From Candidatus Gullanella endobia (lineage in GTDB: Bacteria > Pseudomonadota > Gammaproteobacteria > Enterobacterales > Enterobacteriaceae), in NCBI RefSeq assembly GCF_900048035.1, contig NZ_LN999832.1, forward strand, positions 124,001-188,000: 64,000 bases of DNA, written 5' to 3'. Positions within the stretch are counted from its first letter, which is position 1. Every line of letters starts with the position of its first letter. The position numbers were made by a program, and so were the translations under genes. Below, piece after piece: positions 10,770-61,995 of the stretch. A model generated the notes under the pieces. It was not told where the DNA came from. It ran no database searches and was given only the letters and a program-made list of their open reading frames with translations.

Positions 10770-11519
10770 ATGAGTACTGATATTATACGACAAATTGTTT
10801 TAGATACAGAAACTACAGGAATAAACAAATCAGGTGCCCACTATGAAGGACACCGGATTATCGAAATCGGTGCAGTAGAAATTATCAATCGCCGCTTAAC
10901 AGGTCGATATTTTCATGTTTATTTAAAACCAAACAGACAAATTGATCTCGAAGCATTTAATGTGCATGGCATTAAAGATGATTTTTTGACAGATAAGCCG
11001 ACATTTTCCGAAATAGCTGATGAATTTCTACATTTTATCTGTGGCGGAGAATTGATTATTCATAATGCTCCATTTGATATTGGTTTTATAGATTACGAAT
11101 TTAGCATGTTAAACCGTAACATCGAAAAGATAAACACTTTTTGTAAAGTAACGGATAGTTTACTTCTGGCACGAAAAATATTTCCGGGTAAACGTAATAG
11201 CCTAGACGCATTATGCGATCGATACTTGATCGACAATAGCAAACGTAACCATCATGGCGCATTACTTGATGCTGAAATTCTAGCAGATGTTTTTCTGTTG
11301 ATGACTGGTGGTCAGACTGCAATAAATTTTTCAATAGAAAATGAACAAGAGCAACATAGCATAGGCGAAATTGTAAAAATTAGACGGGTGAAGCGCGATA
11401 AAAAAATGATTAAAGTCCTCTTTGCTAGCAAAGAGGAAGTGATAGACCATGAGCAGTATTTAGATTTTCTTCAAAAGAACGGTGGTATCTGTATATGGCG
11501 ATCGGAAAAATCTAAATAA
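10770..11519 (+). CDS. dnaQ: DNA polymerase III epsilon subunit (3'-5' proofreading exonuclease)
   Basis: The proofreading subunit of the replicative polymerase. The 249 residues (243 in E. coli) keep all three exonuclease motifs: VLDTETTGI near residues 11-18 (D12, E14), IIHNAPFDIGFID for ExoII, and NHHGALLDAEILADVFL for ExoIII (histidine and aspartate). The C-terminal tail that binds the alpha subunit is present. Replicative proofreading therefore looks intact, in contrast to polA in this window. It is divergent from rnhA. Confidence 0.96.
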   Translation: MSTDIIRQIVLDTETTGINKSGAHYEGHRIIEIGAVEIINRRLTGRYFHVYLKPNRQIDLEAFNVHGIKDDFLTDKPTFSEIADEFLHFICGGELIIHNAPFDIGFIDYEFSMLNRNIEKINTFCKVTDSLLLARKIFPGKRNSLDALCDRYLIDNSKRNHHGALLDAEILADVFLLMTGGQTAINFSIENEQEQHSIGEIVKIRRVKRDKKMIKVLFASKEEVIDHEQYLDFLQKNGGICIWRSEKSK

Positions 11520-12636
11520 AGAAAATAAATTATTCTCTTATAGCGAAATAAATATAGGATATTGAATTTTATTGAAAATAATTTCCGGATAAATAAAATC
11601 ATTTTTATAAATGACATTAATGTTAGTATTTGTTTAATTTTTAAAATAAAAACAGAGTTGAAGTAATTTAATTAATTAAACAATCAACTCTTTTATTTAT
11701 AGTTTTATTTTATTAAAAAGAAAATAGATTAGGTAGAGAATTTCTATTATATTAAGTAATTATTCAAATAATACTAACATTCTAATATTATTTCTATGAT
11801 TAATTTTTTTAGATTAATACATCATAAAGATAAACATTGTTTAGGATAGTATATATAAAGTAGTATTATATATTTGATCATATAGTTTTATTGTCCCTTT
11901 CTATTAGAAATAGATTAGTTATTGCTAATATAAAATACATTTTTTATTAAAACCTTCTGGTTTTGTTTGTATAGTATATAGAAAAGTTTGTTATAAAATA
12001 TTTGATAAAATCGAACAAGTAACTTATTAGTCTTAATGAGATATAGATAAAATTCGATTTCCTTTTAAAAATTAATGTTAGTAAAGAGATTTCCTTATAT
12101 TTAATTACACAAAAAATTGAAACCACTATCCATAGATATTTCTTTTTTTATAGTCTATGAATATTTCTAATAATTAGACTGAATCTGTGGTTAATTAATA
12201 TTGTTAATATTATTGTTACATTAACAATATTAACATAATTTTATATATTTTGCTTATTTTTTATCTCACCAAGATTTAATTAGATCTCTTAGTAAAAATG
12301 AAACTGTGCATAGATATTTTATAATATTATACATATTTATATATGCCTATATTCTATTAGATAAAAATTTTCGATAACCTAGTATCACTAGTTTGAGTAA
12401 TTATCAAACATATAAATCTAATCATAAATTTTCATTATATCTAAATAATATAACTTTATAAGCATTATTATAGTACTTATGCTTCATTTTATACATAAAA
12501 TATAAATAAATCTTATGACTATTAATCACGAGTTTGTCATAATTAATAAAAAATTGAGTTGTTAATAATCTAATATTAAATTTATTGTTATATCGAATCT
12601 TTAAAAAATCGAACTTATTTATATCTCTGAAAATTA

Positions 12637-12676
12637 TACGATCACATATGATAATTAATTATTATATGTGATCGTA
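12637..12676. repeat. 40-nt palindrome with one mismatch
   Basis: The 40 bases are self-complementary with no loop, apart from a single G/T pair at 12650/12663. The outer arms, tacgatcacatat and atatgtgatcgta, are richer in GC than the surroundings. It resembles an operator in form, but no gene lies beside it. Confidence 0.85.
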
Positions 12677-13651
12677 AACTAGTGTATATCAATAATTGAT
12701 ACTATAAATAATTTTATTAAAGAACATTTTTTAGAAGAATAAATAGGAGATATTAATAGTACAGCTATATCACTCAATTGACTAAAAATATTTTATTTTT
12801 ATAACATCACTAATTATCTGTATGTTAGTATCATTTAATACTAAACATTATTTTTTTGACCTATAAAGCAATAGATGAACACCTACTACGTAAAATTAAA
12901 TAATGATATTTTCCGATTAATAAAATGTGCTTATTCTTTCATTTCTATCATTAATAATAAAAAGTTTATTTTCTATGAGTAGCAATTGGAAATAATCTAT
13001 TTTTAAAAGCGATATACATTAATTTTTACGCTTACACCGTCTAGATTAATCTGTAAATGTATTTTGATTATATTTTTAATAAATTAAAACTCAGTCAAGA
13101 TACTAGCTTTTATATTTTTATATTAGTAAGTATTAAATAGTCTAGATTTTTATTATTAGTTAATAGATAACTTGACATAGCTTTTATTTTAATTATATTA
13201 ATAAGGATAATCTATCTAGAACTATAGCAACGCAGATTTATTTTTTCACTTCTATCCGGTCATACATAAGATCTGATTAATAAAAAGAACAGAAAATATG
13301 ACGGCTAAAAATATATATTTGATGTACTAGAGATATTCTAATTAATAGAATTTAAAACTAACCTTTTAATAGTATTATTAATACTAATCTAAGTAGTTCT
13401 TCTATTAAAATATATTAAGAAATAATAAATAATTATTATCCATTAATTTATCACTACTATATAGAAAGTTCTAAAGTTCTATTTTATTAACGAAGATTAA
13501 CTTCTAACTAAAAATAATTTAAACTGCTAATAAAAATAAGCTTATAATACGACATTAATAAATAAATATCCCTTTATAAAATTTTAAAAAGTTTTAATAA
13601 TATAAATTATTATATAAATTTAATAAAAAGTAAATAAATCAAAAGAGAATT

Positions 13652-13688
13652 AATTAATTATTCTATTTCGAAAATAGAATAATTAATT
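13652..13688. repeat. Perfect 17-bp inverted repeat, 3-nt loop
   Basis: Positions 13652-13668 pair exactly with 13672-13688 around the loop cga. It lies in decayed DNA. Confidence 0.88.
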
Positions 13689-15092
13689 TTTTATAAATAC
13701 TTACTTATTTTATGCATATAAAATAAAATAATGAATAACTTATATACTCTAAAAATAGAGATAGATAATACATCTATAAAATAATTATCTAATGATATAG
13801 CTTAGTTTTAAGTTTTTATTTTTATTTATTTTACACTATTTTATCAGAATAAAAATTAATCTTATTTTAAAGATAAAACTCTAATTTAATTAAAACTATT
13901 AAAGGTAAATACTGTAACTATAATAGTAGATATTATCATGAATAGCAATCAGTCTCTTCAGACTGGCATATATCGATTATCTTTTTACTGCTAACTAATA
14001 TTATTAAAATAGCTAATAAAGTAATTTTCTATCAATCTAAGGTATCTTGAATTAAAAATTAAATTTTAATTTGAGGATTATTATATAATTAGTATTAGTT
14101 AATTAACTACTGCAATAGTAATATTTAAACATAAGTTCAGTTAAAACTATGAGAACATCAATGATGTTATAATTTATAAATTTGAGTCTGTTCTTAGCTA
14201 CTGTTATAGTTTAATTTATATTAAAAATTGATTTTCTTAAATGAATAATAACAAAAGAAAAATTATTTTCTTATTAATTTCTATATTAATTAGTATACAA
14301 AAAGATAAAAATTATTAAAATTTTCTAAAAGTTAACAATAAGTAAAATATTCCCGATGCTAATTTTAAAGATATAACAGAAATGTATTATTGCATTACTT
14401 TTTAATTGATTTTTTATTTTTTATTTGCTTATTTTAAAGTTTTAAAGGAAAATTCTAAGTATTCTGTTTCGAATAAAAAACTTTTATTAGTTAGATAACA
14501 GACTTTCTCTAGAATATCTCTTAATTCTAATTAGCATAGTAAGAATTCTCTATTAGATATTCATAATATTACCATCTGTTCTTTCGTTCTGTAACTAAAA
14601 TTAGTGATATAGTCATTCTGCATAGCAGAAAAATAATCTACTATCAATCTAATGGTGCTATAGAAAAAATAATATAGAAAGATATTGAAAATAGTGACCT
14701 GCTAATCAGCATACATGTATACCTCAAATATTTTTATGATATTTTATCATGTGTTGATTAATTCAATTTTCTATTTAATTACTATGTCAATATTCTAGTT
14801 AATATTCTAATTTTAATAAACGACACTAAACTATAAAAACTGCTCTACGAACAGTCTAGTATTCTGGTTAGAATTATTATTAACTTTTATATATCTTAAC
14901 TAATCTCATCGAGACTACTTGATGACTATCTAATTCAATCTACATATAGAAAAACGCTTAATACGAAAAAAAAACAAAAGAAAGAACAAATAGCTCAGTA
15001 AAAAGCGAAAAATATTAATAAAATTAAAATTGAATTAATATCACTTAAAAATAAATATATTATCTTTTATGATATGCCTTCACGTATACCTA

Positions 15093-15120
15093 TTGACTTT
15101 TTATAGATTATACATAATAT
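15093..15120 (+). promoter_or_regulatory. Probable sigma-70 promoter of tRNA-Thr
   Basis: TTGACT (15093-15098), 16 bases, then TAATAT (15115-15120). The predicted start near 15127 gives a leader of about 28 bases before the tRNA. Confidence 0.5.
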
Positions 15121-15154
15121 GTGTACTGTTAATATTTGAGTTTTGATTATCTGT

Positions 15155-15230
15155 GCCGGTATAGCTCAGCTGGTAGAGCAGCGCATTCGTAATGCGAAGG
15201 TCATGGGTTCGATTCCTATTATCGGCAACA
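15155..15230 (+). tRNA. thrW: tRNA-Thr (anticodon CGT), altered CCA end
   Basis: Reads ACG codons. It is almost the same as E. coli thrW: D-arm gctcagctggtagagc, anticodon loop ttCGTaa, T-loop gttcgatt, and acceptor gccggta paired with tatcggc, including one G-T pair. The encoded 3' end is A-ACA where E. coli has A-CCA, so the first C of CCA has become A. The working end would then have to be rebuilt by tRNA nucleotidyltransferase. It marks the E. coli proA-thrW region; proBA is gone. Confidence 0.95.
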
Positions 15231-18200
15231 TTAAAGCAATGCAATATTGAAAATAAAATATTTTGCGATATTTTATTTTTTCTCATCTAATCAGCATTAC
15301 TATTATAAACTATAAAACCGTTCGAATATGTACTTTTAACATTATTAACTAGTGCTATAGTTAATGGTAGACTCCCTAATCCTAATAGCTTTCAAATAAA
15401 ACGATGCTAAATAGCAATACATATAATATACAATTTTCTATCATCGATAGAAAAATTTTTTATTAATTAATAATACATACGAATACAGACTTATTTAAGA
15501 ATCTGAATTAATTTTTATTTTTTGTTCGTATCTTTGAGTTTTTTATCTAAAACATAAATTTGATATTCTCCTTAACACTGCCGTTATTTGATATTTTACA
15601 TTGACTAAAAGAATTTATATCAGTTTTTGCTTTTTAATAATTTGCTTTAAGCGAAAAATATCTATACATATATAGTAATATACTGAATACAATAGCAGAT
15701 TTTTTCTACTATCAGTAAATGTACTGGCAATAAACAATAATGACTCAACAAGAAATTAATGAGAAATTCATGAATTATACTAGTAACAATAAAAATTAAT
15801 TCATATTAGCAATAAAATAATAATTGATCAATTCTACTTATTGAAAAATTAATATTTATTTTAATCTATTTAAATATCTTATAAAGATATAAATAATATA
15901 TTTGATCTTCTAAAATAAAAATAGAAACTTCAATCTACTGTTGAAAATAAATAATAACAAACTAAATATTACTAATAATATTTAGTTAATAATATTATTT
16001 TTTAATGCTAAAAATATAAATATATTACTATATTGTAGACTATGATATTCCCTTATTTAATCATTTTTATAATTTTAAATAAAAACAAATCAGTCATAAA
16101 GCAATTTTATTGTTCTTGAACTGCTTGATAAAAAATATCTATTATTTAGTATAAATTAATAATAATTAGTTCTACAAAATCAATAATATTACATATAGTT
16201 CTTAGAATATATCCTAAATATAAATAAAAAATGAAAGATATATTAATAAATAAATTCTTAGAATATTGTTTAGTAAAATATAAATATATATTAAATAAGC
16301 TGGAATTTTATTTTTTTAGCGAAATAAAAAGCATATTCTAATAGAATATATTATATTAACTAATAATAACAGAACAAATAGAATTTAAAGATTAGTAAAA
16401 TTAGTAAAGAATTTATATTATATTTCATATAATTAAAAATTTTTCTAAATATAATAGAATAATATAAAAGAACAGAAGATATCACTAGCAATTAACTAAT
16501 ATATGCTTAATCTTAAACTAACTAAAATACTTTATTTTTATCATAATAAGATCATATATTTTATTAATTAGTATATCTAAATTATCAGTAATCTTAACTG
16601 TATTTTTAAAGAAAAAATAAAATAAAATATTAGTAAACATATTATTCAATATAATAAATATTAATTACTCCTATGAGGTTTACATTAATATGGATTTTTC
16701 TATGTAATATTTATCATATAGCCATACGTAACTGCTATAAATTAGTAACTGAAACTTAATGACGAGTAATCTTGTGTATGTCATTAAAACATAGAAGATT
16801 TATAATGAATGTTATAAACAAGATAATTTATTAAAAATTGTTTCTAAATGGATACTTTAAATACTTATAATAAAGTCCCATATTTTGTTTTATGTTTAGA
16901 TATTAAATTAAGCATATTATAAAATATGCGTTTTTAAAGTTACATAAGCAACATTTCTATAAATGTGCTAAAAATAAAATAAGATATACTTAAATTTAGT
17001 AATATTTAACTATAAATTAAAATAAAATAAAATTTATAGTTAAATATTACTAGTTGTAACTTTTTATGAAAACGTTTTCATATATTTTCTTACGAGGTAT
17101 AAAAGCAATTTTATTACTATTATTAAAATAGTAATAAAATATTTATCGTTAGATAATGCTATTAATAGCTTATTTAATAAAGCATAAAATGCTAAACCCT
17201 TTATTACTTTATGCTATATTAAAATATGACATATCTTATATCGTATATATTATTGCTTTATTTATTATTCTTAAAATGATAATCTAACAAAATTCAATTA
17301 CATTATTATATAATAATTACTACAGTTAGATAAAAGTAATTTTTTTAATTTTCTTAATTAATAGATCGATTATACGCTTAAAAATTAATTATTATATTAT
17401 TTAATACCTATTATGTTATTTAATATAAAACAACATAATAGATATTCCTAAATCTGAGAAGCAAAAAGTAGTTTTTTAAAAAAAAACGAGAATAACATTC
17501 TAAATTAGATGAGAAAAGATAATATATATTTATACGGATATTACCTATTGCGATAAAATAACTTTTATCTAAAAAATAATAATTTTTATTAATTAATCTT
17601 ATTTTTATTATTTAATAATAACAAAAGATAGAATATTATATTATAATATATCATATTATTACTTAATATTATTTTATTACTGTCATTAATTATCAATAAT
17701 TTTTCTATTAATTAAGACAATTGAGTTTTTATTAAATATACTTAGTACGGTTAGTACATTACTTTAGATAGTTTTAATATACTTTAATACTTGATAAAAT
17801 AGTTTAAAAAAATAATCAAAAGTGATCAAATATTAATTATTATATAAATTTATATATTTTATCCATTATTTTAATTCGATAAGATTATTGAAGTAATTTC
17901 AAGCCTAATAATAATTTTAGCTATTATAAAATATAATATAATGCATACACATGCTACTATTACATTATAAACTACTTTATTTTTTACGAAAAGTTCTTTA
18001 CTCTTTAGTACACGATATAGTATCAAAATAGCATTATTAACAAGATAAATGAAAGATAATGAAAGATAAAGTGAATAAATCTTATTTAAATATGTAATAC
18101 CTTGTATCGACTACTAAAATATATACCTATTGTTCTTTATTTACAAAAATATTTTCATTGAGTTTATAAATTTGTTATTTATATTAAATAACGCAATAAA

Positions 18201-20194
18201 GCTTAGATATTTAGCTCTGTCTTGATCTCACTAACTTAGCTATTGCAATAAATAAGCTCAATAACGATCAAGAAAAAACATTTATTCTATACCTTTATTT
18301 GTCTATACAAACATTAAACTGTTTATTTTTTCAGATAAGTGAATATATTTTTCCTAGTGTAATATACATCATATTGATAGTTTATTTCAGTCAGTTTTTC
18401 ATTAATTAATTTTTTAAAAAATACATAATTTACAACTGATACCATATCTATTTCTATACTATCTTTAATTATATAAATTAGTTATGTTTTATCACTATAA
18501 GCGGCCTAATACTCAGAATTAGATTGTTATGAGTACTGGTAAAATTTACTTAATTCGGATTATTTATAAAATCAATCAACATATGACATCGATTAACAGT
18601 AGCATAGGATATTATTACTAACAATTTATGATCAACATGTGTAATCGTTTTTAATATAATCGCTAATGGAAAATGTTTCTCTAGAAAGTTAAAAAATAGA
18701 AAAATCTAATTTAATTTTTATTAAATTAATGATCGTAAAATCATCAAGGGATTAGAGAAGATCGTGTTGTATAATCACTATTTAATGTGTTTTATATTTA
18801 TATTTTCTAAATAAAGAACATTATTATATTCTTTATTATAATTGCACTATAACTTAATCAGATTCGTTGGAAACACTATTTAGTTATTCATCTGAGAGTA
18901 TACATTTCATTAATTTATAATATTTATCTTATACTGTAGACAACGATATAAGAACGAATCCTATATAGAATCTTAATCTTTCTATAAAATATAACAGGTA
19001 GAAGATAATAGATAGATTTAGGTAGGTAGATTTAGGGTAAATTAAGTATTTCTTAATGCTTATTCAAGAGTTAACTGCGCTATTATACTATGAATTATGG
19101 TGATATATGACAGAAAATTTGTCAAATAATGATTATAGTATTATAAATATCATAATCATTATTCAAAATATTAGTTATCTTTTTTTTCTTTTAATTTTTA
19201 ACTAAAATAAACTAAGATAAAAGACGATATTATTTTAATAATCATTAATGTAACATTTATATAATTACTATTTAAACCCGTTACAAAATATTCAAAAAAA
19301 TAAAATTTTATTTATTGAAAATAAATCTATAACCTATAAATAATCTGATTTCAAATCAGATTCAATTAAAAAATATTTTTAATATGATCATCTAAGATAA
19401 TTTTAGATCATTTATCATTTCAATAAAGTTATTTTATTATAGTATGACCTATTTTAATTTATTATCATCCATATTATTTCTTAAAAACTAATAATAACTA
19501 AATATTATGCTATTAAAACAAAATATTTAGTTATTAAAGCAATAGGTAATAATCATTTCTCCCTACCTAAAAAATGTAATATTACATATTATATCAGGTA
19601 CGATCTTTTATTTTAAAATAGAGTAAAGTAGAAAAATAAAAAAGAGCAATAGTAAACTATTTTGGTATCTTCTTATAAAAATCTTTCTTCACTATAGTAT
19701 ATAAGATACCTATAGCTTTATTATCTACTTCACTCCATCAACTAAGGAATGGAAATGAAACTAAAAATCTAATGATATTTTTTGAGATCAGCGTCTATAT
19801 AGATATATAATAAGATAATTTAATAATATTTATATCTTATATTAAGGAATATTAATATAATAAAAATTAATTATAGTATAACTTATAATTAAAAATATAT
19901 TTGTAATTACATTTGTTTAAATAAAAAAGTTAATTTCTTAATTATATAAGAACATATTATAGATTTAGATTTTTATCTAAAAATTATTTTTTAATAAAAT
20001 ATGCTTCGTGATTAATATCAATAATTTTTAATTATTATTCCATTAAATGGATATTTAATATAATTAATTAATACAATACAGATAAGCAAAAATCATTCTT
20101 TTTAAGAGAAGTAATAAAGTTTGCTATCATTTGATCTTTTCATAGTAAAAGATATAGTTCTATAGTATATTACTTTTTAGGCTAAAAACTTTTC
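15231..20194. other. 5 kb decayed non-coding DNA
   Basis: This corresponds to about 160 kb of the E. coli map (thrW to queA), almost all deleted. No gene was recognised on either strand; frames are short and AT-driven. The one striking element is the 22-bp perfect inverted repeat at 16997-17052. Confidence 0.6.
16997..17052. repeat. Perfect 22-bp inverted repeat, 12-nt loop
   Basis: Positions 16997-17018 pair without mismatch with 17031-17052. The loop is aaaataaaataa. There is no nearby gene. Confidence 0.9.
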
Positions 20195-29202: not shown

Positions 29203-29237
29203 AACGTACTCATATTTGAAGTATAAAATAATATCAT

Positions 29238-29390
29238 TTATTTTTTATATATTTTTACATAAAATAATATAGCAAGTTATAGCTACTAGTGTAGTACATT
29301 ATAACTAAGTACTTTGATATACTTTCGTAATATATTCATAATATGAATCCTAAGTTTTAATCCGTGTAATTTCCACTATAAGAAAAGTTA
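29238..29390 (-). pseudogene. ispA: Possible ispA relic (C-terminal end)
   Basis: On the minus strand, directly upstream of dxs, a frame ends YVKIYKK-stop (stop at 29238-29240), like the IspA end YIIQRNK. Before it, in shifting frames, come YTSSYNLL (DTSALEAL), SKYLV (SLKQLA) and VYQST (ARQSLK). Order and position agree with the E. coli ispA-dxs operon. Each match alone is weak and several frameshifts are needed. IspA makes farnesyl diphosphate. Confidence 0.4.
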
Positions 29391-32300
29391 AATAAGTTAT
29401 TTTAAAAAATTCTTTATAAGAATCCTATTTTTATTAATATTCTTAAGATCGTTATTAATATTAAGAATACTGTCTTGTATTTATAAAATAAGGCTGATAG
29501 CAACAGTAAAATAATAAAGATAACACAACGTCGTTGTATTGCGATCTATAGATAATAGTATACTAATACGAACTGATACATAGATAAATGTTCTTATAAT
29601 TTAAATTAGTAAATTATTTTAAGTCGCTTATAAGAGATCTTTCATCTCTCAGTTAAGACATATAATGCTTATATAAATTTTTAAATTTGATATGACAGGT
29701 TGGTTACTTTTATTGCAATACATAATTATTTATTATTAGTTGATTATTATAGATTAGTGAATAGAAATGGATATTTCTTAATTATAGAAAACGGTATATC
29801 AAAATTTTTAATTATTGCCTTAATAACTAATTAGTTTATTACACTAAGAATAGACACAATTCTTTTTCCAAAGAAAAATACTTTGATATATAGTCCTGAA
29901 TAAAAAACGCTTATGGATTAACGAAGATACGGAGGTAATTTTTTGGTACTGTTACTATTTTTACTAGCTATTCCAATAACTATGTTTGAAACTAGTTGTA
30001 ATATATTATTGTTTTATAATAATATATTAAGCTAGAGTGTAATGTAGTAGCTAGTATAATCTATATTATTTTTTCTTCTGTTAAAGTGTTTTTGAGCCAT
30101 ACTGTGCTAGTTCTACTTTATACTAAATACATTAAATATCTTCTTCAACAAGAATGCACCAGATTCAATCTGGGTAACTATTTTGTTGTAGTTATTTAAA
30201 TATAATTTTGAAAATTGATATGTCATTTTTTATATATTTTAATTTTATCAATAAATAGTGAAATTACGAGCACTAGCCAAGAGTGTGCTGATAAGCAGAT
30301 TGACCTTAATGACTTACAATAAAATAATATATTTATAACTTAAAAAATCGAAAAATTGGATTTTTTTATAGTTAAATATCTCACTGTTATATAAAATATA
30401 TAAGTATGTTGATCTTTAACAATTAAATAAATAATTATCGCTGTAATGATTATTTATTATGAAGTTTATCATTAAACTACTTCGGAAATTATGATAAAAA
30501 TCAATCTATGTAGTAGTTTTTATAAAATTCTATTAAAAATAATATTCAATATTAAAATAAATATTTAGGGATAGTACATTATTAAAATCATAATAGATGA
30601 TTGCTAATAACGAATAATATCAGCTTTTTGGTAGTTACTAAAGTTTTTATCCGTATTAAAAATTATTAAGCTCTCGTAGCAGAAAATATCCTTCTCATGA
30701 TATGAGATTATGATTTTTTCCTGTAAAAGCTATTGTATATAGATCGAGTATCGTGTTATGCTTGAGGTTTTACCTATCAGGACATACAATACTATCATGA
30801 CGTCGGTAATAACTTAAATAAGAGCATTAATAATGCCATAGTAAATTAATCTGATAAAATCAATTTATTCTTTCTCAAAAGAACAAATTGATTATTTTTA
30901 TCATAAAGCATATATGAGATTTTATTAGTTTTTCTCTATTAATATAGAAGAAGATATAATATCACTTGACATTAATAATAATGACGATTATTGTCTAATA
31001 TTAAACTATCTAGGAACCGATTACCATTAATATAGTAGTTTAATGAACTAAAAAACTAATTAATCTTTATAAAATTGATAAAGTATTAAATATCTTGATT
31101 GCTAGGTTCTATTTTCTCTCAAGATAAAATATATTACTATATCAATCTGTTATAATAATATAAAAGAACATGCTAAATTATACTAAAGCACTATGTGAGA
31201 TTTACAATAGTTTAACTGTATGTTACTTAAGTTTATATTAAGAAAGAAGTATATTAGTTTAATTCTTTAATCCTAATAAAATAATAATAAAAAAAGTGAA
31301 GAGCGAAAGTGGTATATAACTATTTGTACAATAGTCACTGAAAAATAATATACTTGTCTCTAAAGCAAACGTAAATACAGAATTTAGCAATAACGATATT
31401 ATCTTGGATATCCGTTTAGAAGATGAGTGAGAAAATTTTCCATTAAAACTGACCGATATAGTGTGATATAGGCGTTACTGTTTTATAAGTTAAATAGTTA
31501 TTTTTGCAAACTAGATCAGAGTAAATTATGCTTTCTTTGCTGTGATCCAGAAGTAATGAGTCATCTACAAGCTCTTTATTTATAAGAGAACCGTTTTAAA
31601 AATATTAAAAGTCTACTATTATCCTTAATTTTTACTAATAGATACTTTAAAAAAGACGATTAAATCTTATATTAATTTTACTTATTGCTTACTTATTACT
31701 TGTCTTGTAATATTTTTCTGTATGATTTACTCATATTTATTAACACTCTGGTTTTATTTATTATTGATCTTTACTTTGTAAGTAATACTAAGTATTAATG
31801 AACTGTAGTATACCTTTATTAATCTTTATTAAAGATTTATATGAAGTATATATAGTATATCACTCTAATAGTATCTATTAGACAGAAAAATAAAAATGAT
31901 ATGTCTGCAGTGTTTCTGCTCATATCTTTATTTAATTAAATAACAGCGGATTTTTTTAAATATAGTTTATGCTTACCGTTTGTAAGACATAATATAATAT
32001 TTTTACTACGCTACTTTTATACACATATTATGTTTATAATTAATATGTGCTATATTAGAAATAGAAATAGTGAATTTTAAAAAAAAAAGCGAATGCTTAT
32101 AAATAAGCAATTATAAATAGTGACTAAAAATAAACCATTTCTTATAATTTCTAAGAACATTGTATAGTAATATAAATAAAATAAAAATTTATTTTATAGT
32201 TATTAGAATTACAAATAACTTCCTATATGTTCTTCTAGAAAAGAACAAACAATTTTCTATCATTAATAGGTCATTATATCTATAATAAAAGATTTTTTAT

Positions 32301-33271
32301 TATCAGTAATAAATACAGCTAATATATTATATATATCTATATAAGTAATTCAAGTGTAATACTAAGGAAGTAGAACTATTATTTTTTTGGATAAAAATAA
32401 AAAATTTACAGTAGTAAAAATACTAATATTAAAAAATAAAATAAATTATGATTTATTAAAAAATTTACTAGACTAATTATAGATATAAAATTAAAAGTTT
32501 AGTTTAAATAACTATGTCATCGATAAAACTTATAAAAAAGTAATCACACCTAATAGATGACTGCGCTACGAAAATAGTAGAATTGAATATCATAATATTC
32601 CTGCTATATTTCAATTTTTACTTATTTAACGCTGTACATTATCCAATTTATTATTAAGCTATAATAGAGTATAGTGTTGTTACTGTATACCTTCCAATAA
32701 TAAATAAAAATCTCAGTGATGCCTAGGTTTGCTTTATCATGCCAAACTAATTTACTATTTTACTATACAAGTCAATATGGAAATTTTTTCAGATTATTTA
32801 ATCCTTAATATAAGGACATATTACAGAAAAAATCATCACTATAATTTATATTTAACTAATTACTTATAAAATTGAATGTTATATAAAATATATGAATATG
32901 AGAAAAAATAATTTAGAGGTAACTATTAGGTTAATCGTAGTTCTATATGAATTATTATTAATAATATTTATTACTATATAAAATTATTCTAATTATTATA
33001 ACGATACAATATTAATTTCTTTAAAATTTATTTTAAATACTTTCTGTATACTATTGATATTAAAAATAAATCCATCTCTTTTCTAGAGTTATATCTTAAT
33101 TTTTTATTTTTTAATAAAAAGAAAAATTAATTATATTTTTTAAATAAAAAATAAATTAATTACTAGTAACACACTGATGAATATAATAGAAAGGTATAAT
33201 TAACTTATTTACTTCAAATAGAAAGCAATTCATAGCAATATAACTAAATTTAGTGAAAATGATCTTAGTTC

Positions 33272-33316
33272 TATTGATTATCAAATAATTAATATTTAAT
33301 TATTTGATAATCAATA
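33272..33316. repeat. Perfect 21-bp inverted repeat, 3-nt loop
   Basis: Positions 33272-33292 pair exactly with 33296-33316. The word tcaaataattaa in its left arm recurs in the next hairpin, 38 bases on. Confidence 0.9.
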
Positions 33317-33330
33317 AAAATTAACTACGC

Positions 33331-33367
33331 TTATTTTAATTATTTAAGCATCAAATAATTAAAATAA
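33331..33367. repeat. Perfect 15-bp inverted repeat, 7-nt loop
   Basis: ttattttaattattt pairs with aaataattaaaataa around aagcatc. It shares a word with its neighbour at 33272-33316, so the two may have a common origin. Confidence 0.85.
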
Positions 33368-33731
33368 AATAAAAAACAAATATAGTAATTTTTATACAAA
33401 TAAAGGATTGTGTTCTTCTTTTATTAAAGATTTATTGAAAATATGCTAAATAAAATACAGTTTATACGACTGCTAAAATTACTAGTAATGTAATCAGAAT
33501 AATGTTATCCTATATATTGCTACATCATGATAAATAAGATCATAAAAATAACAAAATTAATGAAACTAAAGTTATAGATTCTAAATCTATTAATAAAAAT
33601 ATAAATATAAATTTTGTTATAAAAATTAAATTAAAATTACTTATTTATTTTTAAATTAAATGTAATAAAAAATTTAAACTCTTATCATAAAATTTTCAAA
33701 TAAAATAAGAATCACATAGATACTAACTAAT

Positions 33732-33782
33732 ATAAAAAACTAAATAACAATGCATTCAATGCATTGTTATTTAGTTTTTTAT
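33732..33782. repeat. Perfect 25-bp inverted repeat with 1-nt centre
   Basis: Positions 33732-33756 are the exact reverse complement of 33758-33782; the centre is c33757. The top of the stem is aatgcatt. A T-rich stretch follows on the plus strand, so it could act as an intrinsic terminator in form. No gene lies nearby. Confidence 0.92.
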
Positions 33783-35574
33783 TTTTGATAATTAAATTAT
33801 AAACTCACAAAAATTCAATATGGATAAAAATCGATACTTAACAGGAATAGCCTAGGCTAAATTAAAATTAAATAAAGATTTTATTAGTACTATAAATAGC
33901 AAATATCGTTAAGTATCTCTATTACAGGTAATATATTAATATAAAAGATGCTTAAAATATCCTTACTTACTCATAGATAATGTAGTATTTTTTAATACTA
34001 TTTATATTAATAAATAGATTATAATTAATTTTTAGATAAAAATAAAATATTTTATTTTTATCTAACATCGTTATATACATATTCAATCTCAATAAAAATA
34101 ACAGTTTTAATACGTTCTATTTCTTTTATAGAATAGAATAATAATAACATTGCGCCAGCATATTTCAATATATTAATATAATTTATATACAGTATTTTTA
34201 TAAACAAGTTGTTCTTGCTTTGTTCTTCATAATATATTTATTTATTAAAATATGTTACAACAGAAAAGTAATGGAGCAGTGAAGAACAGAAATTTCTAAC
34301 TCTAGAATAAAAATTCTATAGATTAAATATTAAATTAAGGTTCTATTTTTTATTAAATATACTAATTTATGATCTGGATTTTTATAATAAAACATTTAGT
34401 TCTAACATTGCAATATCATCACATACTTTATACACATACTCTATAAACAGATAACTTAGATAAGTTTTATATTATTTTACTCTTGGTTAGATTACATTTT
34501 TTATAATACTAAAAGCTAATTAACGCTCTTGTAATATTAACAAATAAGTATTTTTCCAGCTGAGTTTGCATTAATGGTTTTCAAAAAAAAAGAAAACTTC
34601 TATTAATTTCATTATGAAATACTACAGTGCCTCTATATAATATAATGTTCTGAACAATCTAATAAAATATAATTTTATTGATACTATTATCATCTATAAA
34701 TCTATCTAATAGAAGATTAAAATTTTTTCTCCTGGTAAATATTTTAATAATAAAAATTTAACTATACAATAGAATTTTAAATAAAATTTAAAATTTCAAT
34801 TATGAATTTGAATAATATCTCAATCAAAAACTATAAGAAGAAATAAAAGATACTTATATCGATATCATGTTAAATATGATAAATATCAGAATAACTAAAA
34901 ACATTTTATTCTGCTAAAATAAAAAGTACGTTACTATAAACTTAATAGTTTCCATGAATAAAAACGAAGATAAATATACCGATTTTATGCTAATAATGAG
35001 CTAAATCGGCATAATTTATTAATTTTTGAAGAAATTTTATCAGTCATAAAAACAAAAAAACTTCATATTCAGTATTACTTTCCTGGAAAATCTGTATAAT
35101 ACTACTAAATTTTCTGTTAAACTGAAAAATGAAAAAATATCAACTGCTTTATTTTTATATTATCTTTATTTAAAATTTAAAGGTTTTTATGATCTTTTAA
35201 AAGTTGTATACTAAGTACATAAAAATAAAATACAATATAAATGCTATTTTCATCTATATGAAATAATTTATTCAAAATTTTTTTCAACGTGAATAATATC
35301 AATATTATTAAGATAATAACAAATGATAAATATATATCCTGAAACATCAAATGCAATGCTATTTAGTAGTAAATAAGAAACAGCTCTACTGTAATAATCA
35401 TATAAGATGTTTAAATAGTAAACACTATTCCGTGTCAATATTAGTCTTCTTAATAGAAGCATTCATCCAAAAATATAAATAAAACAAATAAATCGTACAT
35501 CAGCGCTTTGATTAAAGGACTATATCTACCTATGCATATATTAAATATATTTTTGATTTATATAGAAAAATAAA

Positions 35575-35600
35575 ATACTACTATACTAGTATAGTAGTAT
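35575..35600. repeat. 26-nt perfect palindrome
   Basis: atactactatact and agtatagtagtat join with no loop. It overlaps short tandem agtatagt repeats, so it may have arisen by slippage. Confidence 0.85.
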
Positions 35601-35990
35601 AGTAGCATAAGCAAAGACAGTTAAGATCTCACTTATTAATATTCATATGATATAAAGGAAATTAATTTTAACAAATTAATAAAGCATTTTTAGTGAAAAT
35701 AGATATTTTAGTGATTTATAATCATATAGGCTTATAAGTTTAGTTGTTATCCTTCAAAGTCGTGTCATCCTACGGTGTCAAACTTTATATAAACTTGTCT
35801 TGCTATTGATACTAATAGATAGTGTTATATTTAACTGGAAAACAGTTTTAAGAACAAAGTATGCTACAGAAATTTAGGTAATATTCGATATTAAAATAGT
35901 AAAACTTTGTTTTAAAAAAACATCGCTTTTCTTCGATTAGTATTAAAGAAAAAACAAGTAGTGAAAAATTAAAAACGGTTTTAAAAATTA

Positions 35991-36015
35991 TAGAAAAAAT
36001 CGACGATTTTTTCTA
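35991..36015. terminator. 12-bp perfect hairpin upstream of clpP
   Basis: tagaaaaaatcg pairs with cgattttttcta around one A. It has six A and six T in opposing arms, as in two-way terminators. In E. coli tig ends upstream of clpP; this may be the surviving end signal of a lost tig. Confidence 0.4.
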
Positions 36016-36089
36016 GTCTGGTAATAATATTTCATTTCACATAAAATTGGAAATTTTTACGCTAAAAAGTTTTATTTTTAGGAGATAAA

Positions 36090-56970: not shown

Positions 56971-58813
56971 TACAGATTATATAGCAATAAATCTATTTGA
57001 AGAGGTTATCACTATATTGTCGAGCATTTTTCACTGTCGCATTTTTATTTTTTTAATACTAAGCATGTTAAATTTATACAAATTCTCTTTTTTTTAGAAA
57101 TTTGTAATTTAATTTTGCTTTATTTAAAAAATAATCGTCTTTATTAAGTTCAATTGTGTCTATTTTAGAATAGATGATTTATAAAAAATATATTATTCAA
57201 TTATATTGATTAACTTATTGAAAAACGTTATTTTAAAGTATTGATATAAGCGAAAAGAGCTATAAAAAGAACAAACAGAAGATAATAGAGAATAAGTTTA
57301 TAATGATAGTCCCTGTTTATAAAAATAAAAATTTTTTAATTTATAAATATATAAATTAGGTGAAAAGATATAATACTATGTTCTATCTTTAATAGATAGA
57401 TAAAAATTTTATGGTCTAGTTTTTATAAACTATTGTATAAGATAGCTTATCAATTACAATTGATAAAAATACTTTTCAAAATAAAGATAATATAATAATA
57501 GCTATTATTATGGAAAATACTATCTATAACCTATTCGATAGATTTATTTAGATTTATTTAAAATATTCTATTAAATACTATAGATTCTTTTAATTCTCTC
57601 GAGATATAGATATATCTACATAAAATATAGACAATTTTCTATTTATCAAGTTTATTTAAATATTATAATAATTTTAATTTTAATCTATTTTTTTTAAAAT
57701 CTTTTAATTTTTTATTAAAATCGATAAATCACTCTTTTAGATGCTTTTTAAAAAAAATAAAGAATGTTATTTTTCAATAAATTAACTAAAAAAGAGAAAA
57801 TATTTAGCATTACAGGTTAATGTTAACTAGAATTATACCTCTAATGCTATTATTTATTATTGGATCTATTGTGTTATGAAAGAACCTTAATATACAAAGA
57901 TTTCTCTTTGTAGTGAGGATTACTCTTTATAATAAGGGTATTCTTCTTAGATTAAGAAATCTAGTAATATAATGTTAAAATCATAAAAATTTTTGACTAA
58001 TTAAATTTAAATTACTAGAATTTTTCTAGTTTTCTACCGTATTGTTATTAATTCAAGTAAATTTAATTCTATTTTTAGAATTTTTAAGATTATGGTTTTA
58101 ACATAAAATAACCAATATCATGTTAATTTAAATTTAATCTCTGAATAACTGAACAAAACTTTAATTATAGTTATAGCACTAAATGCTTTAGTGAAAAATT
58201 AATTAAATTGCTATTTAATAGTTGGAAAAAATTAAAAATATTAAACTTATGATAGCATTTATAATATATTTATTTATTAAAATTAATAAAAATTTAAACA
58301 GAAGAATTTAATTTCAGATTAAAAGATCTTTCGTAAAAGATCTTATTATATATCAGAAAAGAGCAGCTTCTGTTCTTTGTCATAACAGATTTTATAAATT
58401 TTTTATTAGCAATAATATCTAACGAAAATGAAAATTAACTGAATACTATTAATAGATAAGATTAATTAAAAATATTTCTAATATCGCATAATTTTTATTA
58501 ATTCAAAAATACTTCTTTCTGTAAATCAACGATACATAATTCCATTAGATTCTGATATTGTCGTTTATATCAAAGATAAATAATTAACATTATTGTTTAA
58601 TAATAAAGATTATTTATTTAAAAATATAAATATTATAGTTATTAATAAAATGTATTTTACTCATGAAATTATCTAAAGTATTACTTTATAAGCTATATCA
58701 TATTCTTGATATTTTATCACTTTTATTTTATACAGAAATTTATTTCTGATTGAATATTATATATATACTACAAATTCCTAATGTTTAGTAACTAATAAAT
58801 AACGAAATACACC
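56971..58813. other. 1.8 kb decayed DNA containing a rearrangement joint
   Basis: To the left the order follows E. coli minute 12; to the right it is polA-engB of minute 87. The joint itself cannot be placed within this gap. No gene, IS end or long repeat was recognised. Confidence 0.6.
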
Positions 58814-61600
58814 ATGGTTAAAATCGTAGAAAATCCAATTATTTTAGTGGATGGTTCTTTTTATCTTTATCGTGCCTATCATGCCTTTCCATCACTAATT
58901 AATAGCGCTGGAGAAACAACCGGCGCGATATATGGCGTATTGAATATGCTTAAAAGTTTACTAGTACAATATCAGCCAAGCCATGTTGCAGTTGTATTTG
59001 ATGCTAAAGGAAAAACGTTTCGTAATAGGTTATTTAAAGATTATAAATCCAATCGATCACCTATGCCAGACGATTTACAAAATCAGATAACGCCACTACA
59101 TGATATGATCAAAGCAATGGGTTTGCCGTTGGTAGTTGTTGGCGACGTTGAAGCCGACGATGTTATTGGAACACTAGCGCTATCAGCAGCGCGTAATGGT
59201 CATGATGTTCTGATAAGTACCGGCGATAAAGATATGGCACAGCTAGTATCATCTAAAATTACTCTAACTAATGCTATATCTAATACTATTTTTGGTCCAG
59301 AGGAAATAAAGATAAAATTCGGTGTACCACCGGAGCTTATTATTGATTATCTTTCATTAGTTGGAGATAACTCAGATAATATTCCTGGTGTTCCAGGGAT
59401 AGGTGAGAAAACTGCACTGGCATTATTACAGGGATTAGGTGGGTTAGAAGTCTTGTATAACCAACTTGATATAATTAGTACACTAAACTTCCGCGGCGCT
59501 AAAACTATAGCTATTAAACTAGAGAAATACCGCGAGGTAGCTTTTCTTTCCTATCAATTAGCAACCATTAAAACTGATGTATTGTTAGATTTAACTTATG
59601 ATAAATTAAGAGTAAAGAAATACGAATCTGAAGGATTAATGCTATTGTTTCAGCGTTATGAATTTAAACGTTGGCTAAGCGATTTAAAAGTAGGAAAATG
59701 GTTACAGGAGTATAAAAATACTGCTGTTCAGCCATTACTATTTAGTGCACCTCGATTAGTACCAAACAAACATTTAACAAAAACATTGTCGAAGTGCAGT
59801 TATATTATTATTAATACTATATCAACTTTAGAGATGTGGATTAATGCAATTCGTCAAGCTGGTTTTTTTGCTTTTAATATATCAACTGATAGACTAGATA
59901 TATTTATTACTAATCTGATAGGTTTGTGTTTTTCTATAAAACCTAATGAGGCTGCCTATCTTCCGATAGGACATAATTATTTAAATGCGCCGAGTCAACT
60001 GGATTGCAAAACTGTTCTAACAGCATTGAAACCAATTTTAGAAGATCCTACTATTACTAAAATTAGTCAAAATCTTAAATTTGATTGTAGAATTTTAAAA
60101 CGATACAATATTAATTTATCTGGTACTTTGTTTGATACTATGCTGGAATCTTATGTATTAGACAGCGTCGCTGGCCGTCACGATATAGAAAGCTTATCAA
60201 AGCGATTTTTACAATATACTATCGTAAACTCTAATAAAATATTAGGTAAAAATCGAAATCAACTAGTATTTGATCAAATATCAATAGAACAAGCAGCACT
60301 TTATTCTGCCGAAAACGTTGATATAACTCTCCGTTTACATCAAAAAATATGGCCACGTATTAATCAGATACCTAATCTGAAAAAGATATTTGAAGAAATC
60401 GAAATACCATTAGTTCCAATTCTATTACGCATAGAACAAAACGGCGTGCTAATAGATAAATCAGTTCTTACTGCATATTCAGTAGAACTAAAAAAATGTT
60501 TAGAAGAACTCAAAGCGAAAGCTCATCAATTAGCGGAGGAATCGTTTAATCTTTCTTCTATTAAACAAATACGAGCAATTTTATATAAAAAGCAGAAATT
60601 ACCAGTACTAAAAAAAACTCCCAGAGGTGCTCCTTCTAGCAATGAAGGAGTATTAACTGAGTTAGCATCAAACTATCCACTACCGAAACTAATTTTAGAA
60701 TATCGTAGCCTAGTTAAGCTTAAATCTAGCTATACTGATAAACTTCCAAAAATGATTCACTCCTTTTCGAATCGAATACATACCTCCTATCATCAGGCAA
60801 TCACTTCTACTGGACGACTATCCTCAAGTAATCCTAACCTACAGAATATTCCAGCACAAAATAATACAGGTCAACGAATCCGGAAGGCATTTATTGCACC
60901 ACCAGATAAAATTATCATGACAGCAGATTATTCTCAGATTGAATTGCGTATTATGGCGCATCTCTCACGCGATCCTGGATTACTAAATGCCTTCGCTACT
61001 GAAACAGATATTCATTGCGCTACTGCCGCTGAAATATTTAATATTCCGCTGGAAAAAGTAACACAAAATCAGCGCCGTAGTGCAAAAACTATTAATTTTG
61101 GCTTAATTTATGGTATGAGTATTTTCGGTTTAGCACGTCAGTTATCAGTTTCTCCATCGGATGCAAAAAAATATATGAATCTTTATTTTGATCGTTATTC
61201 TGGTGTTTTAGAATATATGGAACGTATCCGAAAACACGCTAGAGATTTGGGTTATGTTGAAACTCTAGATGGCCGTCGGCTGTATTTACCAAATATTCAC
61301 TCGAGAAATAGTGTACTAAAAAAAAGCGCGGAGCGAGCTGCTATTAATGCTCCGATGCAAGGAACTGCCGCTGATATTATTAAGCGAGCGATGATTATAA
61401 TTGATAATTGGCTACAAAAGGAAGCACCACCTATCCATATGATTATGCAAGTACATGATGAAATAGTATTCGAAGTACAGCGTACTATACTTGAAAGTGC
61501 CAAAATACAAATTAAAGAATTAATGGAAAGTTGTTTTAGATTAGATATACCACTTCATGTAAAAATTGGTATCGGAGAAAATTGGAGTCAAGCTCACTAA
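58814..61600 (+). CDS. polA: DNA polymerase I, proofreading site damaged
   Basis: Fills gaps and removes primers. At 928 residues it has the same length and numbering as E. coli. The 5'-nuclease domain (1-320) is intact: VDGSFYLYRAYHAF, VEADDVIGT, STGDKDMAQL, GDNSDNIPGVPGIGEKTA. The polymerase domain is intact: ADYSQIELRIMAHLSRD (D705), RRSAKTINFGLIYGMS (O helix, 754-769), MIMQVHDEIVFEV (D882). In the middle 3'-5' exonuclease domain three of the four metal-binding acids are replaced: D355 is N, E357 is S and D501 is N; D424 stays. Proofreading by this enzyme is therefore very probably dead. Confidence 0.97.
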   Translation: MVKIVENPIILVDGSFYLYRAYHAFPSLINSAGETTGAIYGVLNMLKSLLVQYQPSHVAVVFDAKGKTFRNRLFKDYKSNRSPMPDDLQNQITPLHDMIKAMGLPLVVVGDVEADDVIGTLALSAARNGHDVLISTGDKDMAQLVSSKITLTNAISNTIFGPEEIKIKFGVPPELIIDYLSLVGDNSDNIPGVPGIGEKTALALLQGLGGLEVLYNQLDIISTLNFRGAKTIAIKLEKYREVAFLSYQLATIKTDVLLDLTYDKLRVKKYESEGLMLLFQRYEFKRWLSDLKVGKWLQEYKNTAVQPLLFSAPRLVPNKHLTKTLSKCSYIIINTISTLEMWINAIRQAGFFAFNISTDRLDIFITNLIGLCFSIKPNEAAYLPIGHNYLNAPSQLDCKTVLTALKPILEDPTITKISQNLKFDCRILKRYNINLSGTLFDTMLESYVLDSVAGRHDIESLSKRFLQYTIVNSNKILGKNRNQLVFDQISIEQAALYSAENVDITLRLHQKIWPRINQIPNLKKIFEEIEIPLVPILLRIEQNGVLIDKSVLTAYSVELKKCLEELKAKAHQLAEESFNLSSIKQIRAILYKKQKLPVLKKTPRGAPSSNEGVLTELASNYPLPKLILEYRSLVKLKSSYTDKLPKMIHSFSNRIHTSYHQAITSTGRLSSSNPNLQNIPAQNNTGQRIRKAFIAPPDKIIMTADYSQIELRIMAHLSRDPGLLNAFATETDIHCATAAEIFNIPLEKVTQNQRRSAKTINFGLIYGMSIFGLARQLSVSPSDAKKYMNLYFDRYSGVLEYMERIRKHARDLGYVETLDGRRLYLPNIHSRNSVLKKSAERAAINAPMQGTAADIIKRAMIIIDNWLQKEAPPIHMIMQVHDEIVFEVQRTILESAKIQIKELMESCFRLDIPLHVKIGIGENWSQAH

Positions 61601-61721
61601 ATAATAAATAAGCAAGTATTTTAATAAATCTATATCAGAATATGATATAGATTCTAAATATAAATAAGTATTTTAAAAGATTTTTTCTCTATTAATAGAA
61701 CTAAATAATTTTAAAATATAC
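61601..61721. other. Spacer between polA and the Spot 42-like relic
   Basis: A short AT-rich spacer. No promoter was picked with confidence. Confidence 0.4.
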
Positions 61722-61805
61722 TATATAACAAATATCTTCTATCTTTTAAGCTCTTTAATTTATTTTAATAGCTAGATATTTTATTGGTACCAATAAAATA
61801 CTGAA
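61722..61805 (+). ncRNA. spf: Spot 42-like small RNA, probably decayed
   Basis: In E. coli spf lies between polA and yihA, and this stretch does too. ttctatcttt (61737-61746) is the same as in Spot 42, the next 20 bases agree at most positions, and gctagatatttta (61771-61783) matches GCTGAATATTTTA at 11 of 13 after a 6-base deletion. The GC-rich terminator stem has been replaced by the AT palindrome tattttattggt/accaataaaata with no T-run. Spot 42 represses sugar-use mRNAs with Hfq; a function here is doubtful. Confidence 0.6.
61777..61800. repeat. 24-nt perfect palindrome
   Basis: tattttattggt joined to accaataaaata without a loop. It overlaps the 3' end of the Spot 42-like relic, where the E. 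coli RNA has its terminator hairpin. Confidence 0.85.
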
Positions 61806-61995
61806 TTATAGACAGTTTTATAATTGCTATAAAATATTATTTAGTTATGATAATTTTAATCCTATAAAACGAAAGTGTAATTATTGCTATTTGCTAATTA
61901 AATTAGATTAATACTGCATTAAGTTGTAATATCATTGATTAGTTTTATTAGAGTTATTACTACTTATACAGGACATTAAACTTAGAAGTAGTGAT
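61806..61995. other. Non-coding gap downstream of engB
   Basis: Nothing was recognised between the RNA relic and the engB stop codon. Confidence 0.4.

Follow-up and report, generated by a model that had tools for sequence, protein, structure and literature searches.

DNA polymerase I (Pol I) without a working 3'-5' exonuclease is already known, and the single gene described here joins that class. The enzymes of Bacillus stearothermophilus and Thermus aquaticus, whose structures are among the matches of our protein, combine a Klenow-like fold with a non-functional 3'-5' exonuclease domain; that loss is old and lineage-wide, whereas in the family of our symbiont it is point-wise and tied to reduced genomes. 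Pol I of Helicobacter pylori lacks D355, D424 and D501; in measurements on this enzyme proofreading was absent, and it extended mismatches and bypassed lesions (PMC3121766). Both enzymes retain their 5'-nuclease and polymerase sites (activities measured in H. pylori, residues read from sequence in ours), and in both the exonuclease structure is thought to be preserved and translesion (TLS) polymerases are absent, as judged in our case from a predicted fold and a Y-family search (PMC3121766). The H. pylori enzyme differs in belonging to another lineage; in our symbiont E357 is lost and D424 retained, and relatives with larger genomes have the site intact.

A survey of bacterial PolA reports DEDDy substitutions in about half of all bacterial Pol I, with inactivation following phylum for the most part and showing no relation to genome size (PMC12926913). 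Its inactive PolA1 enzymes share with ours the site and the kind of substitution, but the survey reports no link with genome size, whereas in our family the loss tracks genome reduction almost perfectly (PMC12926913). The APEX (PolA2) proteins of Actinobacteria likewise carry a vestigial 3'-5' exonuclease domain, yet the survey describes them as a separate PolA group without a 5' nuclease and with a clamp motif, whereas our gene is full length (PMC12926913). Cardinium polA resembles ours in that a reduced endosymbiont has lost functions of Pol I piece by piece; there exonuclease and polymerase domains are partly lost by fragment deletion, whereas here single acids are replaced (PMC12842512). 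What is new is the repeated, near-universal loss in reduced Enterobacteriaceae, with the exonuclease site going before the polymerase. We recognised no family-wide, size-linked pattern with preferential loss of the acids in the open-access literature searched, of which coverage was partial.

The window, a 64,000-nucleotide stretch of the Candidatus Gullanella endobia genome, contains the sole polA match in this single-contig genome of 938,041 bases:

58814..61600, + strand: polA, DNA polymerase I, 928 aa, a single open frame (ORF and Pfam)
58814..59683, + strand: 5'-nuclease (FEN-like) part, aa 1-290 (Pfam and MAFFT)
59789..60370, + strand: 3'-5' exonuclease domain, aa 326-519, fold predicted to be kept, catalytic acids lost
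60374..61597, + strand: polymerase domain, aa 521-928, eight active-site residues kept

PF02739, PF01367, PF01612 and PF00476 all score above cut-off in one chain, which has the architecture of bacterial PolA1 (5' nuclease, 3'-5' exonuclease domain and family A polymerase); the exonuclease domain is still recognised by PF01612 at 2e-27. Residues 326-928 align without a gap to residues 3-605 of the Klenow chain (phmmer against PDB chains), and over that span the initial annotation was right that the numbering is identical to that of E. coli. An AlphaFold2 model of residues 324-928 has a mean pLDDT of 90.2; the four PDB entries that match it best are all structures of E. coli Pol I (TM 0.92-0.93). 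Residue states were read from a MAFFT alignment with 133 relatives. The polymerase residues R668, D705, E710, R754, K758, Y766, H881 and D882 and the nine catalytic acids of the 5' nuclease, both lists following the E. coli literature, are all present, so that the initial description of these two sites as complete holds. Sites invariant across the family have changed at 9 of 133 positions in the 5'-nuclease part, 12 of 49 in the exonuclease domain and 13 of 176 in the polymerase domain.

The surroundings are sparse. After polA, on the opposite strand, lies a GTPase that by eye resembles EngB/YihA (61601-61995), in the order of E. coli, there with the spf sRNA between the two genes; near polA and 61601-61995 no Spot 42 RNA match reached the Rfam cut-off. 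In the 1.8 kb from a tRNA-Arg to polA (56971-58813) the sole ORF of at least 30 aa overlaps the tRNA. Two further stretches, 11520-20194 and 29203-36089, hold no complete ORF of at least 150 aa, and GC is about 18-27% in the 4-kb blocks covering them, consistent with a gene-poor window of eroded DNA not yet deleted.

An active DEDDy exonuclease has D355, E357, D424, Y497 and D501, in E. coli numbering. The corresponding codons of the window gene read directly as follows:

59876..59878, + strand: codon 355, AAT, D355N (phmmer, MAFFT and codon reading)
59882..59884, + strand: codon 357, TCA, E357S (phmmer, MAFFT and codon reading)
60083..60085, + strand: codon 424, GAT, D424 kept (MAFFT and codon reading)
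60302..60304, + strand: codon 497, TAT, Y497 kept (MAFFT and codon reading)
60314..60316, + strand: codon 501, AAC, D501N (phmmer, MAFFT and codon reading)

The N-I-S at residues 355-357, the N501 and the retained D424 of the initial annotation are therefore confirmed, and the alignment with relatives that it had proposed sets NSDYN in the window against DEDYD in the larger relatives. E. coli also has DEDYD, as do 81 of the first 82 larger genomes read in the family, which excludes chance as the source of the changes. An intact D-x-E and D elsewhere in the domain was looked for and not found: there is no D-x-E within residues 340-372, and N487D is the only acid in the exonuclease domain placed where none of 78 reference genomes has an acid, so that the domain holds no intact ligand set elsewhere. 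Window PolA lacks the residue set of an active DEDDy exonuclease and resembles an exonuclease-inactive Pol I, with replaced catalytic acids in a fold that is predicted to be retained. Since D355N, E357S and D501N occur while the polymerase, 5'-nuclease and DnaQ residues are intact, the 3'-5' proofreading of this Pol I has, to judge from its sequence, very likely been lost. The changes fall on three of the four catalytic acids against 9 of the 45 other invariant sites of the domain (p 0.04). At 1.48 the exonuclease/polymerase divergence ratio falls within what the larger genomes show, their median being 1.40 and 18% of 78 reaching 1.48, so the domain as a whole is evolving nearly normally while its catalytic centre is lost.

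This pattern is not peculiar to the symbiont in the window. For the search we took 392 genomes of the family as an even sample of a larger group, and in 134 of them we used MAFFT to read the residues; 121 of the 392, the window's included, are small (at most 2.0 Mb), and no complete DEDDy site was found among them. Exonuclease-plus-polymerase sequence is retained in 52 of the 121, whereas 64 match only in the 5'-nuclease part or in pieces and 5 have no match. Each of the 52 has lost one or more of the five DEDDy residues, which is why we do not regard the window symbiont as special, and none has a D-x-E anywhere in residues 340-372. With gaps counted as lost, all four acids are missing in 25, three in 20, two in 6 and one in 1; the alignment affects which letters are read in the most eroded rows, but not the absence of D-x-E. 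Dropping the damaged rows G371, G055 and G029 leaves 49 of 49 with the site lost. Stops cut the first ORF extracted from G371, so that its exonuclease and 5'-nuclease residues are gaps there; compared with a relative of its own genus the whole protein is spanned, with two stops, a 5'-nuclease part and no motif I D-x-E. The exonuclease-dead relatives include the Sodalis endosymbiont of Henestaris halophilus and the secondary endosymbionts of Ctenarytaina eucalypti and Heteropsylla cubana. In one of the small genomes, G080 (row L108), exonuclease motif I contains in-frame 15-base tandem copies, seen as three FNxxx units, and the linker holds more repeats, so that the motif is disrupted within a polA of 54% GC.

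Among larger genomes of the family (above 2.0 Mb) 82 of 83 keep the site, namely 81 of the 82 first read, which have all three exonuclease motifs, and the 3.6-Mb G327, fetched later. The sole exception is G039, of 2.4 Mb, with polA in two frames. These 83 were sampled from 271 family genomes above 2.0 Mb, after exclusion of six with a split, partial or frameshifted polA (G147, G161, G240, G343, G028 and G315) and of L194, the same genome as L177. Two genera hold both states: in g38 the site is intact at 2.2 Mb (G173) and carries D355H at 1.4 Mb (G037), and in g48 it is intact in G327 and lost in G047 and G383 (0.7-0.8 Mb). Host restriction of most of the small genomes, and their lifestyle, we presume from size and kinship.

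Small genome size alone does not explain the loss, since 54 of 67 small (at most 2.0 Mb) Gammaproteobacteria of other families keep DEDYD. The remaining 13 do not, one of them (G500) having lost only Y497; none of the 67 has lost any of the eight polymerase residues or the nine 5'-nuclease acids. Compared with 52 of 52 in the family, 13 of 67 gives a Fisher probability of 9e-22, with rows that are not independent. Left out of the 67 were five candidates that had been searched (G552, G644, G521, G730 and G740) and further non-family rows of at most 2.0 Mb, complete genomes among them. Here too one genus, g184, holds both states, intact in G418 (1.7 Mb) and lost in G564 (1.0 Mb) and G672 (0.9 Mb). 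The exonuclease residues are lost too in L034, L051, L058 and L074, these four being Candidatus Photodesmus blepharus, a Legionella MAG, a Saccharospirillaceae MAG and the RIFCSPLOWO2 gammaproteobacterial MAG.

The initial annotation read the window gene as selective loss of the proofreading acids within a living gene, and the open 928-aa frame with its other sites intact supports this. The genus of our symbiont is represented by one genome and its nearest relatives are about 74% identical in protein, at which distance we judged synonymous sites to be saturated, so in place of a domain-wise dN/dS we measured erosion of family-invariant sites, defined on 78 larger genomes and scored in 49 reduced ones. 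On average 25% of invariant sites have changed in the 5'-nuclease part, 51% in the exonuclease domain and 18% in the polymerase, and exonuclease erosion exceeds polymerase erosion in 48 of the 49. The exonuclease domain is also the faster one in genomes of free-living size (leave-one-out exonuclease/polymerase ratio 2.27, against 2.78 in reduced genomes), so part of its excess is ordinary.

The acids themselves are hit more often than their surroundings. In an early-stage set of 14 undamaged exonuclease-dead genomes, with at most 35% exonuclease erosion and at least one acid lost, 37 of the 56 cells for the four acids are changed but only 131 of the 614 for the remaining invariant exonuclease sites, about a threefold difference in frequency, and a random draw of four exonuclease sites reaches 37 hits with a probability of 0.0008. 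Non-catalytic invariant D and E residues of the domain have changed in 27 of 83 cells. One row per inferred lineage, with rows hand-picked and summed, gives 17/28 against 54/308 (Fisher), and adding the intact L082, L091 and L092 (2.1-2.2 Mb) gives 37/68 against 132/~746 by hand sum. Other sites of the domain that change frequently in the 14 genomes are M458 (12), D459 (11) and D388 (8), so the metal ligands are not the sole losses; that non-catalytic sites such as M458 and D459 change as frequently as the acids do weighs against the scaffold reading set out below.

The order of loss is seen in cross-section. The eight catalytic polymerase residues are intact in 50 of the 52 small family genomes that have lost the exonuclease site, and the reverse, an intact exonuclease site with a broken polymerase site, occurs in none of the 52. 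Several small family genomes carry polA as two frames, a 5' nuclease followed by an exonuclease-polymerase (rows L111, L112, L115, L120, L122, L126-L129, L131, L132 and L270-L272); each frame is largely open, and these are possibly two working genes. From the cross-section we infer that exonuclease catalysis would go first, then the integrity of the domain, then the Klenow part, with the 5' nuclease probably last.

To count losses we built a FastTree phylogeny on the 5'-nuclease and polymerase parts, excluding the exonuclease domain, from 50 larger and 40 reduced genomes, G327 and three outgroups; nine near-duplicate and three damaged reduced rows were dropped and the larger rows thinned. It contains six clades in which the site is lost throughout, or seven if each lost residue is irreversible, a number that is a floor because the long branches of reduced genomes attract each other, which also blurs the count of independent losses. 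A mixture-model tree built for the Sodalis-like part comes close to a polytomy, and a single loss would suffice in that part. An independent-pairs test yields only six pairs, five in agreement and one without a difference (p 0.06).

The other fidelity layers of these genomes fare differently. The window carries

10770..11519, + strand: dnaQ, replicative proofreading subunit (ORF; match 10788-11501), D-x-E, D, H and D residues intact

as the initial annotation had supposed. DnaQ scores above cut-off in 45 of 47 genomes searched. We read 47 dnaQ loci, one from the window's genome and the rest from 46 other genomes of which 43 are exonuclease-dead, and none has lost a catalytic motif, although the gene is imperfect in G092 (two frames) and G246 (one stop), and in G080 no match over cut-off was found. 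Of 40 hand-chosen genomes, 26 are exonuclease-dead; all of these have lost Pol I proofreading, yet most keep MutS and, where it was read, DnaQ. A MutS match over cut-off is present in 17 of the 26, among them the window's genome, and in the other 9 the gene is missing, fragmentary or broken. Of these 26 genomes 1 has a Y-family polymerase (PF00817), against 11 of the 14 that are exonuclease-intact, and in the window's genome PF00817 has no match, as in the H. pylori situation of no Y-family TLS polymerases. G051 has a weak Y-family match with a stop inside. Three genomes of 2.1-3.3 Mb, G190, G173 and G069, have no Y-family match and an intact Pol I exonuclease; they are possible intermediates.

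This association invites the explanation proposed for H. pylori, that without Y-family TLS polymerases an exonuclease-dead Pol I is favoured, extending past lesions and mismatches instead of idling. The three possible intermediates show that Y-family loss can come first, G080 has changed at three invariant exonuclease sites, two of them catalytic, and G037 at two, one catalytic, and the H. pylori enzyme offers a precedent (PMC3121766). The excess of hits on the catalytic acids could equally mean selection for inactivation. However, Y-family loss is part of general reduction, so that the association, in 40 hand-chosen genomes, is confounded; G039 is exonuclease-dead with a Y-family gene; and plain relaxation would also lose catalytic residues fastest if the fold is still needed. 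We therefore consider selection for inactivation unlikely. It is tempting to speculate further that bacteria turning into host-restricted enterobacterial symbionts go through this loss early, as a selected and stereotyped step in which, after Y-family loss, one to three metal-ligand changes would make Pol I a lesion-bypass polymerase before strong AT drift and the loss of MutS and DnaQ, the Klenow part being discarded later and the 5' nuclease alone staying, but we hold this scenario to be doubtful.

The initial annotation also suggested that a mutator-like repair polymerase could help explain the AT drift of the genome, and this was not supported. Exonuclease loss in E. coli Pol I has been reported as a lagging-strand mutator, as cited in the H. 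pylori study (PMC3121766), and polA is AT-rich in most exonuclease-dead genomes of the family. But G080 and G036 are exonuclease-dead without strong AT drift (polA GC 0.54 and 0.48), the site is intact at a polA GC of 0.39 in G327 and, outside the family, of 0.30 in G678 and 0.27 in G430, and DnaQ and MutS remain in the window's genome. As both off-pattern combinations occur, neither exonuclease loss nor an AT-rich polA requires the other, and it is very improbable that the loss drives the drift, although a contribution to mutation is possible. We give as little credence to a decaying pseudogene in which the exonuclease site is one of many random hits. Several relatives do have a split, frameshifted or 5'-nuclease-only polA, and the window is gene-poor, but the ORF is intact, invariant sites outside the exonuclease domain have changed rarely, no gap separates it from Klenow, all polymerase residues are kept and the changes concentrate on the catalytic acids. 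Residual or altered activity, with N355, S357, D424 and N501 binding one metal and hydrolysing slowly, or with another nuclease acting in trans, is also improbable. D424 and Y497 are kept in a fold that is predicted to be kept and may sustain trace exonuclease activity; on the other side, three of the four acids are gone, N487D is the only acid at a newly acidic column, and H. pylori Pol I without D355, D424 and D501 has no editing activity (PMC3121766).

We instead favour, with a probability of roughly four in five, a living Pol I in which the 3'-5' exonuclease has become a catalytically dead scaffold, lost early in host-restricted, reduced Enterobacteriaceae as the most dispensable fidelity layer. 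In Klenow, D355, E357 and D501 help hold the two metal ions of the exonuclease site; without them the window enzyme would be unable to hold both. Its 5' nuclease would still cleave flaps and primers and its polymerase would still fill gaps, but the enzyme would probably be unable to remove a mispaired 3' end. We infer relaxed selection as the cause: the acids would serve catalysis alone and go first, whereas the domain may stay for a time as a structural platform for the polymerase. DnaQ, which would proofread the bulk of replication, presumably stays under selection. Many repair genes are lost together in reduced genomes, which makes the cause of any one loss hard to isolate.

In a broader context, the link with genome size within this family is close to absolute, and most small genomes sampled from other families do not share the loss. 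As host-restricted Enterobacteriaceae shrink, proofreading by Pol I may be the fidelity layer that they can most readily do without, and the comparison suggests an order in which the layers of replication fidelity fall. It turns a vague idea of decaying repair into a specific prediction, which could be tested with E. coli polA strains.
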